Positions 37,716 through 43,924 of a DNA stretch of 52,732 bases are shown here, piece after piece; position 1 is the stretch's first letter, and every line of letters begins with the position of its first letter. Location: NCBI GenBank assembly GCA_026414605.1, contig JAOAIP010000056.1, positions 1 through 52,732 of the forward strand, given 5' to 3'. Source of the DNA: Bacteroidia bacterium (GTDB taxonomy: Bacteria; Bacteroidota; Bacteroidia; B-17B0; Aurantibacillaceae). The notes beneath the pieces were generated by a model. That model was not told the DNA's origin, did no database searches, and saw nothing but the letters and a program-made list of their open reading frames with translations. A program made the translations under genes and the position numbers.

Positions 37716-37745
37716 TTTTGTTTCTATTGAGGTATTTCAAATTAA

Positions 37746-37998
37746 ACCACAGAGAACACAATTAGTTTAAAGTTGAAAGTTAAAAGTAGAAAGTGTAATA
37801 TGTCCCATAGGGATAAATATGGGTAGCCCCGAAGGGGCAAAATACAATAGCACAGGGCAAAGCCCACATGAGTTGAAAGTTGAAAGTTAAAAGTAAAAAG
37901 TTTTAGAGCACTATAACTCTAATCTCTAAATTGAAAAAGTATTCTCATTACTTTCAAACTTTCCACTTTCAACTTTTTACTAATGTATTCTTTGTGGT
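37746..37998 (+). repeat. Fold-back repeat, copy A
   Basis: A 253-base element fills most of the adk-obgE spacer. Its ends are inverted copies: ACCACAGAGAA on the left, TTCTTTGTGGT on the right (one mismatch). Inside them AATTAGTTTAAAGTTGAAAG pairs imperfectly with CTTTCAACTTTTTACTAATG. The centre carries three mini-hairpins: TCCC-ATA-GGGA (37803-37813), GCCCC-GAA-GGGGC (37826-37838) and GGGC-AAA-GCCC (37855-37865). No reading frame of note is present. The remaining ~90 bases before obgE hold only a weak TATATTTT box at 38072-38079. Confidence 0.85.
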
Positions 37999-38092
37999 AA
38001 ATATAACATACAAGAACACATTATGCAAATCTTTTGTGCCCTTTGTAATAGATATTAAATAACTAATAACTTATATTTTCAAAGAAAAAATT

Positions 38093-39268: not shown

Positions 39269-40675
39269 ATGTTGTGGTTATTCGTTGTTTTATTTATTGT
39301 ATCTATTGGTGGTGTCATCTATTTATACATTCGTTTTAATGCTGTAAATACTGAAAAAGCAGTGCTACAATCTCAAAATCAACAATTACAAGCAGAAATA
39401 ACTTCTTTAAAGACAAAGATTACTCAATCAGAACAAGATTTGAATAATGCAAAAGGTGAATTACAAGATAAATCAAAGCAAATAGCAGCGGATCAAGCAA
39501 AAATAAACATTCAAGCAAATGAATTAGAAAAATTACAAAATATGTTATTGTCTACTCAACAAGAAAATAAACAATTAAATGCAGAAAATGCTTCTTATCG
39601 TCAAAAAGTTCAAAATTTAGAAGATTTATTAGCAAAACAAAAAGAAGAAATGACCCAACTGCATCAAAAACTACAAAAGGATTTTGAAATTCTCACCAAT
39701 AAATTATTAGAACAAAGCACTCAAAAATTAAGTGAACAAAATTTACAAGTGATAAGCACTACTATTAGTCCCATCAAAGAATACTTGCAGCAAGTCAAAG
39801 AAATTGAAAAAAGAATTCAAACGTATTATGACAATGAAAACAAAGAACGTTCATCCTTAAAAACCATCATTGAAGAATTGACAAAACGAAGCGATGAAGT
39901 AAAAAACACTGCCGATAGATTAGCCAAAGCCCTTACCACTGAAGTGAAAAAGCAAGGAAATTGGGGCGAATTCATATTAGAAAAAATCCTTGAACTATCA
40001 GGACTTGAAAAAGACCGAGAATATACCATTCAAACCAAACTTGACGACAAGACACCCGATGTTATCATTCATTTACCCGATAATAAACATTTAATTATTG
40101 ATTCAAAAGTTACACTCAACGCCTTAATTGAATTTCACTCTGCACAATCAGAAGAAGAAAAAAATCTTTATGCTAAAAAAATTATTGATTCCGTTCAATC
40201 CCACATCAATAATTTAAGTTCCAAGGATTATGAAAAAATCCTCAATCTTTATTCTGTTGATTTTGTATTAATGTTCATTCCTATTGAGTCCATCGTTTCT
40301 ATTATTCAACAATATCAAGGCGAAGACATTTTTAGTTATGCCATTCGCAAAAAAATTATCATTGTTACACCTACTTCACTCATCGCTACTTTGAAAACCA
40401 TTTACTTTATTTGGCAACAAGAAAAAAGAAGAAAGGACATTGAAAATATCTTAATAGAAATAGAAAAGTTATATGATAAATTGAGAACCTTTACGGATTA
40501 TTTTGCAGAATTAGAAAAAGCACTCCAACAAGCACAAAGAAAATTCAATGATGCCAAATCATCTCTTGTAGATGGCAGAGGCAGTGCTATGAGTATTCTT
40601 GTCAATAAAATTCAACCTTACATTAATCCCAAAAAAAACATTACCAATTTTTTACCCAAAGAAGATGAAAATTAA
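39269..40675 (+). CDS. rmuC: DNA recombination protein RmuC
   Basis: RmuC family protein of 468 residues, linked in E. coli to limiting recombination between inverted repeats. One membrane helix (1-22) is followed by a long Gln/Lys/Glu-rich coiled coil (about 25-150), then the RmuC domain with [20 protein letters not shown] and the nuclease-like core [27 protein letters not shown], later VLMFIPIES. The frame extends upstream to 39143, but the promoter box and the membrane anchor both favour the ATG at 39269. Its end overlaps the permease gene by 11 bases. Confidence 0.92.
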
Positions 40676-41897
40676 AGAACTTGTCCTCCAAGCCCTTTTA
40701 AGTATCAAATCCAATTTACTTCGTTCCTCTTTGACAATGTTGATTATTGCCATAGGCATTATGGCATTAGTAGGTATACTTTCGGCTATTGATGCCATTA
40801 AAGCAAGCATCACAAGTGAGTTTTCAGATTTAGGGGCAAATACTTTTTCAATTATTGAAAAAACAGAAAACATCAAAAAAAGAGGACGGATATTTCGCAA
40901 AAAAATTTCTGCACCTATTCGCTTCCATCAAGCCAAAGCATTTAAAAAACTCTATGATTTTCCTGCCATAGTATCTATTTCTACAGATGTAACTTTTACT
41001 GCCAAAGTCAAATACCAATCTCAGTCCACCAATCCTAATATTCAAATCAAAGGAATAGATGAGGACTATTTAAAATTATCCGATTATGAAATAGAAGAAG
41101 GCAGGTCGTTCAGTCCTATTGAAATTCATCAAACCAACAATTACGCCATCATTGGAAAAGACATTGAAGCACTGTTATTCAAAAAACAAAATCCCATTGG
41201 AAAAAAAATTTGGTGGGGCAATCATCAATTTGTAGTAATAGGTGTGCTCAAACCCAAAGGCAGTAGTTTTGGTTTTGGTGGTGATAAAGTCATTTTCATT
41301 CCCCTTGAAACCGCAAGAGGACTAATACCTACAAGCAATGCGACTTTTTACACACAAGTAAAATGTGCCTCTACTCACCAACTCAATGCCGCTATTGATA
41401 AGGCCCGTGCTGTATTTCGTAATATCCGCAAATTACAATCACACGAAGAAGATAATTTTGACATAGAAAAATCCGATGCTATTGCTAACTTGGTCATAGA
41501 AGATTTAAAGAATGTAACATTAGGGGCTACTTTTATTGGCATCATTACACTAACAGGTGCAGTCATTGGCTTGCTCAATATAATGTTAGTCAATGTAAAA
41601 GAAAGAACCCGAGAAATCGGCATTCGCAAAGCCCTTGGTGCATCGTCTAAAAACATTCAATTACAATTTTTATTAGAATCCATATTTATAGGACTAATAG
41701 GTGGCTTAGGCGGTATTATTTTAGGAATAATTATTGGAAACCTTGTGGCTATGGGCTTAAATACGGGCTTTTTCATACCTTGGTTATGGATAACTACCGC
41801 ATTGATATTATGCTTTATTGTAGGTATTTTAAGTGGTTACTACCCTTCTAAAAAAGCCGCCGAAGTCAATCCTATTGAAAGTTTAAGATACGAATAA
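40665..41897 (+). CDS. MacB/FtsX-type ABC transporter permease
   Basis: Inner-membrane permease of 410 residues. One helix lies near the N-terminus ([19 protein letters not shown], about 25-43). A periplasmic MacB-type domain (about 50-270) follows, and three C-terminal helices carry the FtsX signature between them ([32 protein letters not shown]). The last helix ends in the usual [20 protein letters not shown]. It belongs to the group that exports lipoproteins, peptides or drugs or transmits signals. No ATPase gene is next to it, so the partner lies elsewhere. The ATG at 40665 ([11 protein letters not shown]) is chosen over 40599 because it gives the normal start; it overlaps rmuC by 11 bases. 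Confidence 0.9.
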
Positions 41898-41937
41898 TTT
41901 TAATCTTTAATCGTTATTACTCAGCACTTCAAACTTA

Positions 41938-42275
41938 ACCACAAAGAACACAAAGAAAAACGCATACAAACCACACAATTAGTTTAAAGTTGAAAGTTTA
42001 AAGTTGAAAGTATAAAGTGTAATGTGTTGTGTCCCGTAGGGATAAAATATGGGGAGCCCCGAAGGGGCAAAATACAATAGCACAGGGCAAAGCCCTGTGA
42101 AAATAAATCCACAACATTTCAAGCCCTGAAAGGGCGACACCTATAAGGAAGAAAGTAGAAAGTTCAAAGTTAAAAGTAGAAAGTATTAAAACGCTATATC
42201 ATTAAATAGAAAAAATATTTCCTTTTACTTTCAAACTTTCCACTTTCAACTTTTTACTAATGTATTCTTTGTGGT
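41938..42275 (+). repeat. Fold-back repeat, copy B
   Basis: A 338-base element takes up most of the 443-base permease/PD40 spacer. Its terminal 11 bases, ACCACAAAGAA and TTCTTTGTGGT, are a perfect inverted pair. The AAAGTTGAAAG-type blocks inside them are also mirrored. The centre has four mini-hairpins: TCCC-GTA-GGGA (42032-42042), GCCCC-GAA-GGGGC (42056-42068), CAGGGC-AAA-GCCCTG (42083-42097) and GCCCT-GAA-AGGGC (42123-42135). Copy A lacks the fourth. Both copies lie in the same orientation. No gene was seen in it. Confidence 0.87.
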
Positions 42276-42307
42276 AAATATAACATACAAGTAACAAAAA
42301 TTCTTAT

Positions 42308-42340: not shown

Positions 42341-43924
42341 ATGAAAATGAAAAGTATTGTTTCGTTCTGCACATTCATTCTATTTGTACTTCCAATATTG
42401 GCTCAACAAAAAAAATTCAAACAACAACGTACTTCTGAGTTCAACGACTCTGTCAAAATTGTAACTAAAAAATTAGGATTAAATATCAACTCTAAATTTG
42501 ACGAATACGCACCCATTGTTACCGCCGATGGCTTGCAATTATTCTTTACTTCTCGCCGCCCCTTTACTGATAAAGAAATCAAGAAAGAAAAATCGTCAAA
42601 AGAAAAAATCTATATTTCTACCAGAAAATCCGACAAAGACGAATGGAATCCTGCTGTACCTTTACCTCCCAGCATCAATGACCCACTTAAAAACATATCT
42701 GATATAGCCATTACTAACGATGGTCAAAAATTGCTTATTTACTTTGATGACGAAGGGAATGGTGAAATTTATGAAAGCGAACTCAAAGGAACAGAATGGA
42801 CAAGTCCTAAATCGATCGGTTTTCCCATTAATACAGAATACCACGAGTCCTCGGCAAGTTTTGCTCCTGATGGCAAAACACTTTATTTTGTATCTAATCG
42901 TAAAGGAGGAATTGGTGGCAGAGATATTTGGATGAGTACTCGCACCCCCGATGGCAAATGGACAACGCCAATAAATCTGGGCGAACCCATCAACACACCT
43001 GATGATGAAGAAGGAGTATTCATTCACCCCGATGGCAAAACAATGTTCTTTTCCTCAAAAGGTCATAAAGGAAAAGGCGGTTATGATGTGTTTGTCTCAG
43101 TTAATGACGAAGGACATTGGTCAGACCCTATAAATCTTGGTGAACCCGTCAATGGTCCTGGCGATGATGTTTTTTTGGTATTAACTGCTAATGGCAAAAA
43201 GGGCTATTTCAGTTCCGAAGGATCAAGTAAAGATAAAGACATTTACGAATTAGAATTTATCCCAAATTTTCAACTTAAAAACAAAGGACCTAAATTGGCA
43301 CTTGTAAAGGGTATTGTCATTGATGCAGAAACCAAAAATCCAATTGGTGCAAAAATTAATGTGATAGACAATGAAAAAAACAACCCTATTGGAGAATATA
43401 AATCCAATGAAGCCACAGGAAATTTTTTGATTTCATTACCATCTGGAAAAAATTATGGTTTGAATGTCAATGCCGAAGGATATATGTTTCATTCTGAAAA
43501 TTTTAATCTCCCTGACTCTGCACAATTCAAGGAATATTTCATAAAAATAGAACTTAAAAAACTCAAAGAAGGCACTAAAGTGATATTAAAAAATATCTTT
43601 TTTGACTATGATAAAGCCACACTAAGACCCGAGTCCTATCCAGAATTAGATAGGGTAGTGGAGTTGTTAAATCAAAATCCCAACTTAAAAGTAGAAATAT
43701 CTGGTCATACAGATAGTAAAGGATCTGATGAATACAACTTAAAACTTTCTCAGTTAAGAGCCAAATCTGTTGTAGATTATATTATTTCAAAAGGTATACC
43801 CGCCAACAAACTCATTGCTAAAGGATATGGCGAGACACAACCAATAGACACTAATGACACAGAAGAAGGTAGACAAAATAATCGCAGAGTAGAATTCAAA
43901 GTTCTTTCTACCGAAGCCAAATAA
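42341..43924 (+). CDS. PD40-OmpA family outer-membrane protein
   Basis: Envelope protein of 527 residues. A signal peptide (1-21) is followed by WD40-like PD40 repeats (about 50-310): YAPIVTADGLQLFFTSRR, ESSASFAPDGKTLYFVSNRKGGIGGRDIW, GVFIHPDGKTMFFSSKGHKGKGGYDVF and LTANGKKGYFSSE. Next is a carboxypeptidase-regulatory-like beta domain (VKGIVIDAETKNPIGAKINV). The OmpA peptidoglycan-binding domain closes the protein (NIFFDYDKATLRPESYPEL, ISGHTDSKGSDEYNLKLSQLRA, GYGETQPIDTNDTEEGRQNNRRVEF). The order resembles PorE of T9SS, but the TPR part and a lipobox are missing, so I do not assign that name. It probably links the outer membrane to the cell wall. Confidence 0.9.
   Translation: MKMKSIVSFCTFILFVLPILAQQKKFKQQRTSEFNDSVKIVTKKLGLNINSKFDEYAPIVTADGLQLFFTSRRPFTDKEIKKEKSSKEKIYISTRKSDKDEWNPAVPLPPSINDPLKNISDIAITNDGQKLLIYFDDEGNGEIYESELKGTEWTSPKSIGFPINTEYHESSASFAPDGKTLYFVSNRKGGIGGRDIWMSTRTPDGKWTTPINLGEPINTPDDEEGVFIHPDGKTMFFSSKGHKGKGGYDVFVSVNDEGHWSDPINLGEPVNGPGDDVFLVLTANGKKGYFSSEGSSKDKDIYELEFIPNFQLKNKGPKLALVKGIVIDAETKNPIGAKINVIDNEKNNPIGEYKSNEATGNFLISLPSGKNYGLNVNAEGYMFHSENFNLPDSAQFKEYFIKIELKKLKEGTKVILKNIFFDYDKATLRPESYPELDRVVELLNQNPNLKVEISGHTDSKGSDEYNLKLSQLRAKSVVDYIISKGIPANKLIAKGYGETQPIDTNDTEEGRQNNRRVEFKVLSTEAK

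Follow-up and report, generated by a model that had tools for sequence, protein, structure and literature searches.

The window analyzed here, 52,732 nucleotides long, is one entire contig (C46) of a Bacteroidia bacterium, the assembly of which comprises 2.48 Mb in 76 contigs and is 96% complete. The repeat locus that it carries is flanked by an ABC-permease-like gene (40599-41897) on one side and by an OmpA/PD40-like gene (42341-43924) on the other, and no ORF of at least 60 aa was found within it (41938-42275). The OmpA/PD40-like gene itself has about 30 matches in its own genome and about 40 in genome G019. A preliminary description had treated the locus as one REP/MITE-like family of Bacteroidota. 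It is indeed a multicopy repeat, with copies in the same genome and in relatives, but that description merged two nested repeats, i.e., an outer fold-back element and an inner block of GC-rich hairpins.

Two nested repeats

The outer element (copy B, 41913-42295, + strand) was delimited by similarity among the own-genome copies and extends from GTTATTACTCAG to AGTAAC; folded as single-stranded DNA it reaches z = -6.4, and no shuffled sequence folded equally well. The perfect 11-base inverted ends noted earlier, ACCACAAAGAA (41938-41948) and TTCTTTGTGGT (42265-42275), are real. However, they are subterminal and not the true ends, as other copies remain similar beyond them, on the left to GTTAcTaTTCAG and on the right to AGTAAC. 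Between them lie, all on the + strand, an AAAGTTG-type heptad tract (41979-42020), a further heptad tract beyond the hairpin block (42150-42186), the two forming a single unbroken tract in block-free copies, and an inverted heptad tract (CTTTCAAACTTTCCACTTTCAACTTT, 42222-42261). The overall module layout is GTTAcTaTTCAG..ACTTCAAACTTAACCACAAAGAA..(AAAGTTG)n..core..(CAACTTT)n..TTCTTTGTGGTAAAATATAACCTGAATAGTAAC, and the mirrored blocks described previously are present as AAAGTTGAAAG at 41986 and 42000 with the complement at 42243. Two other copies occur in the window: copy A (37738-38015, + strand), with its block cut off inside the third hairpin, and copy C (965-1106, - strand), a right module without the hairpin block.

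Sequences related to the 356-bp stretch occur at 40 or more places of the genome, a lower bound from the scoring of 40 of 224 candidates. Copy numbers of outer elements and blocks were determined in 1.20 Mb of own DNA, sampled as stretches and 91% coding according to simple ORF calls. The right part of the outer element forms 50 clusters in this sample, none centered in a gene, and the neighboring genes are arranged in tandem (30), convergently (11) or divergently (9). Terminal inverted repeats, a criterion for MITEs, are present, and no target-site duplication was seen in the two copies whose ends were both recognized. The sequence GTTACTATTCAG was considered as a possible terminus of a complete transposon and dropped, its search count being only about twice that of the control. 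The outer AAAGT element is a second, MITE-like repeat that houses some of the blocks, and no mobilizer was found for it.

The inner block (42031-42135, + strand) consists of four hairpins with the loops GTA, GAA, AAA and GAA, exactly the compact row previously described; three of the four are GNA triloops. Hairpin 1, GTCCC(GTA)GGGAT (42031-42043), is followed by AAAATATGGGGAG, and hairpin 2, GCCCC(GAA)GGGGC (42056-42068), by the spacer AAAATACAATAG, which is one base shorter than the general box introduced below. Hairpin 3, CACAGGGC(AAA)GCCCTGTG (42081-42099), is longer. After hairpin 4, GCCCT(GAA)AGGGC (42123-42135), comes GACACCTATAAGG, which is a variant form of the conserved 3' box. GGAG precedes the stem of hairpin 2 in copy B, and GTAG stands there in many sister copies. 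Four GC triloop hairpins thus fall within about 110 nt, whereas nearly all other 110-nt stretches of the window have none, and the block as single-stranded DNA folds with z = -3.8 on either strand, a value that no shuffle equaled. In the sampled 1.20 Mb there are 16 block copies, and no ORF of at least 100 aa covers the center of any of them.

In filled outer copies the block interrupts the heptad tract, while in many others the tract is unbroken; since so many outer elements are block-free, the block must have entered a pre-existing outer element at least once. Comparison with relatives yielded no clean empty and filled orthologous site, and the gene order next to the OmpA-like gene differs in G019 and G002. 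The block could alternatively be passive cargo of the fold-back MITE, which alone would move by means of an unknown DDE transposase. This would agree with the location of most of the best full-length blocks in this genome within the heptad tract and with the larger number of outer elements. However, besides the block-free outer elements, blocks and part-blocks also stand alone here without an outer element, some fused to another repeat, and in other families they lie beside Y1 genes, whereas neither an autonomous partner nor a target duplication was seen for the outer element. We regard this explanation as rather unlikely.

Several other repeats were encountered in the same genome. A different fold-back repeat (AACTCACCCCCTTTTAATTCCCCCTCTC...GAGAGGGGATGGGGGTGAGTT) is fused to half-blocks just before hairpin 2 at C50:30563, C71:13037, C9:47167 and C4:96129. 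Another set of triloops, GTTCC(GTA)GGAAC and GTGCC(GTA)GGCAC, occurs inverted at distances of about 120-190 bp with TATTGTAG/TATTGTAAGG boxes (C4:59495-59691, C58:113650-113836, C58:130048-130237 and C69:37818-37939) and is a candidate for another orphan REP-like family. Finally, TAAGCCCC(GAA)GGGGCTTAATGTGAATAGCCACCAACGACAGTTGGTGG was found at C23:100753, C9:104216, C62:41759 and C48:85699 and on C13 and C22, adjoining a GC-rich GCGGAGGGCGGCGAAGCCGGTACTGCC repeat at several of these places.

Hairpins beside Y1 transposase genes in other genomes

In a survey of 61 genomes of the family, 38 carried a Y1 transposase, most of the proteins that were read having DH[IV]H and Y..NQ..HH, the signature of TnpA subclass 1.2, and hairpin density went with the presence of Y1 (P = 9e-5). 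The enzyme (PF01797) combines HUH with the Y..NQ..HH signature as invariant alignment columns. Around 80 loci of subclass-1.2-like Y1 genes, taken from named genomes, GC triloop hairpins reach a density of 5.8-5.9 per kb in the 150 bp adjoining the gene on each side, compared with 0.14-0.16 per kb at 5-10 kb from the same loci and 0.02-0.05 in shuffles of the near segments, an enrichment of about 40-fold. Up to 300 bp away, 46% of the C(GNA)G sites formed stems of at least 5 bp vs. 1.5% beyond 2 kb, while control loops gave 0% (C(ANG)G) and 1% (C(CNT)G). In DNA, mini-hairpins of the C(GNA)G type have exceptional stability. One of this kind serves to stabilize DNA aptamers (PMC4686876).

A hairpin lies within 300 bp at 64 of the 80 loci and is absent at the other 16. 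The hairpins are inverted around the gene and face inward, with GNA:TNC ratios of 83:14 upstream and 30:72 downstream, and their stems vary between loci yet remain complementary. A conserved box, GACATNTTTATAG, follows on the 3' side at a distance of about 10 nt; when scored with the respective locus left out, the box of 86% of the near hairpins lies above the 95th percentile obtained with random 14-mers. On the 5' side only an A at -1 is conserved, and a GT[AG]G foot is absent. Quentin et al. (2018; PMC6006769) stated that TnpA subclass 1.2 is generally without IS200-type hairpins and listed no REP for it; the statement on hairpins does not hold for the loci studied here. Among the open-licence papers listed for the hairpin sequences or for subclass-1.2 REPs of Bacteroidetes, none was relevant.

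RF01687 and the MGQSL clade

On the - strand, positions 42055-42099 match the covariance model of Rfam family RF01687 (Acido-Lenti-1) with 45.5 bits (gathering score 37), hairpin 3 corresponding to RF01687 hairpin 1. The match has the same two hairpins, the same spacer and a TTC triloop on the Rfam strand. The Rfam family is presented as an sRNA of Acidobacteria and Lentisphaerae, whereas in the present case it is a DNA repeat of Bacteroidota with multiple copies, in which the match belongs to a larger unit that is associated with Y1 genes. The own genome contains 19 matches, 15 of them above threshold, and matches occur, often many per genome, in 73 of 392 Bacteroidota genomes but in none of 14 control genomes; genomes of the same genus gave nothing. 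With many copies per genome and in multiple genomes, RF01687 behaves as a dispersed repeat. At three separate places in genome G397 (contigs C52, C90 and C53), RF01687 pairs on opposite strands lie about 160 bp apart, an arrangement suggestive of a fixed composite of the REPIN type.

Using one best RF01687 locus per other genome, a choice that may favor gene-adjacent copies, we found a Y1 ORF of subclass 1.2 within 330 bp at 7 of 29 loci, where 0.03-0.2 would be expected. The proteins concerned start with MGQSL and, in a tree of those that were long enough (that of G011 included), form one group (1 change, support 80/98, 0 of 500 shuffles). Conversely, a home-made profile built from the own-genome blocks alone, with E-values that are rough, retrieved full-length three-hairpin units bracketing MGQSL Y1 genes, equivalent to the part of the block from hairpin 2 to hairpin 4 (approximately 42055-42137). 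Units flank the Y1 gene on both sides at loci L259 and L265, and at these and at L262 they are in inverted orientation and lie 27-29 bp past the stop codon (27 bp at L259 and L265); two MGQSL loci, L251 and L272, have other orientations. Two more MGQSL genes, identified by protein search alone, in G011 (L045) and on a Persicobacter plasmid (L274), also have units on both sides, and at L274 the spacer between hairpins 3 and 4 is similar (AATAAATCCAC..CC). This plasmid region (CP012861.1, 281852-292301) contains several composite copies in 10 kb, some of them about 390 bp apart, in Rhs/YD-repeat-like DNA. No MGQSL enzyme was confirmed in viral contigs, and the matches in phages were all weak and distant ones of the IS200 type.

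Y1 genes outside the MGQSL clade rarely have two-hairpin units nearby (3 of 80 loci), which ties RF01687 to a single clade instead of the subclass as a whole. The other subclass-1.2 clades mostly have a single hairpin plus box, indicating that the type of repeat follows the clade of the enzyme, as in RAYT systems. Because the units bracket MGQSL Y1 genes in other Bacteroidota, we read the block as a non-autonomous REP-like composite, and it is probable that its natural partner is the HUH/Y1 MGQSL clade of TnpA subclass 1.2.

RF01687 could instead be a genuine small RNA or an element acting at transcript ends or in mRNA stability, with the repeats representing copies of an RNA gene or terminators. 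Besides its cataloguing as an sRNA in Rfam, the source paper termed it 'probably RNA'. The stems covary, as would be expected of an RNA: in the adopted ungapped alignment of 15 matches, 97.4% of cells are paired vs. 72.8% after shuffling, and 12 of 13 base pairs show double changes. Hairpins of single-stranded DNA would covary equally, however, and the stable GNA triloop forms on the strand opposite to the Rfam model. The transcript-end role put forward in the preliminary description found little backing, as a sigma-70/terminator scan stayed near background apart from one weak terminator-like match on the - strand (0.2 expected), and the blocks occupy tandem, convergent and divergent gaps (9, 3 and 4, respectively) without terminator-like bias. 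Moreover, inverted bracketing of one transposase clade is unexpected for an sRNA. An RNA role explains less than that of a transposase substrate, and we consider it quite improbable.

The distribution of the repeats further bears on the idea of a structural repeat maintained by the host, as proposed for REPs (gyrase, IHF, nucleoid binding, mRNA 3' stabilization), with a domesticated Y1 enzyme that only maintains the repeats. A strictly intergenic, multicopy repeat and the low copy number reported for subclass 1.2 genes (PMC6006769) would fit such a role. The patchy occurrence of RF01687, with its absence from the searched genomes of the same genus, speaks against it and makes it very unlikely.

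Search for a partner in the own genome, and known transposase systems

The preliminary description had proposed looking for a Y1 gene flanked by the same hairpins. Such genes exist in the relatives, but two independent searches of the own assembly revealed no Y1 transposase, not even a fragment. The genome nevertheless has 57 matches to the C(GNA)G pattern, compared with 4 in the control, and the highest hairpin density among 30 sampled genomes without Y1. These copies presumably derive from a transposase that is now lost or lies in an assembly gap. In the latter case, the enzyme would be present in the organism and the family active instead of orphaned; two contigs, C21 and C31, start within a copy of the block, and an assembly of 76 contigs at 96% completeness leaves room for this. 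However, even a fragment is missing from both searches, and several hairpin families in this genome are all without a partner, so that we view an overlooked enzyme as possible but somewhat doubtful.

If the block is a REP-like composite served by an MGQSL enzyme, its mobilization could proceed in the following steps. Mini-hairpins of the C(GNA)G type would fold on one of the strands while it is single-stranded, e.g., as lagging-strand template. Once folded, they may be bound by the Y1 enzyme, which would cut at the conserved box, some 10 nt away on the 3' side, or close to it; the composite would then be copied or moved into intergenic DNA. More broadly, we lean towards a phylum-wide REP-transposase system that pairs subclass-1.2 Y1 enzymes with mini-hairpins of the C(GNA)G type and a TATAG-type box on their 3' side, a system new with respect to the open-licence literature searched, in which Acido-Lenti-1 would be the single-stranded DNA substrate of one clade and not an RNA gene, and in which repeats could persist at high density after loss of the enzyme. 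If correct, this would explain the function of an orphan Rfam RNA for which annotation as a potential regulatory ncRNA continues, for example next to protease genes of Tannerella in a study of 2026 (PMC13298647). It would also provide a REP-like partner, with a 3' box layout in place of the 5' GTAG foot, for a Y1 subclass reported without one. Hairpin, box and protein clades are defined exactly enough for direct testing in cleavage assays.

Among known systems, the outer element differs from MITEs in that neither a target-site duplication nor an autonomous partner was found, and resembles them in its inverted ends, length of about 200 bp, lack of an ORF, intergenic location and dozens of copies. 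The IS200/IS605 family (IS608, ISDra2) includes the closest enzymes of known structure (2xm3, 2vhg and others), and its members likewise have hairpins close to the ends of the gene, together with a candidate recognition box. Their LE and RE use the same strand, whereas the hairpins described here are inverted around the gene, and the element of this genome has no tnpA and is not autonomous. The enzymes share with TnpA_Y1 subclass 1.2 (PMC6006769) the DH[IV]H, WQ and Y..NQ..HH motifs, a length of about 150 aa and a predominance in Bacteroidota, but that survey reported no REP or typical IS200 hairpins, in contrast to the flanking hairpins at 64 of 80 loci here. The canonical pairing of REP/REPIN repeats with TnpA_REP (RAYT), to which the locus had initially been likened, does not apply: the 5' GT[AG]G foot is replaced by a conserved box 3' of the hairpin, the hairpins are C(GNA)G triloops arranged as a three-hairpin composite, the enzyme belongs to subclass 1.2 (Y..NQ..HH) and not class 2 (Y..NP), and the own genome, with its contig breaks inside blocks, yielded no partner. 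Both systems nonetheless consist of short, dispersed intergenic hairpins in multiple copies, with copies that flank a single Y1 gene in inverted orientation (here in relatives and not in the own genome), and in both, different Y1 clades pair with different repeat families.
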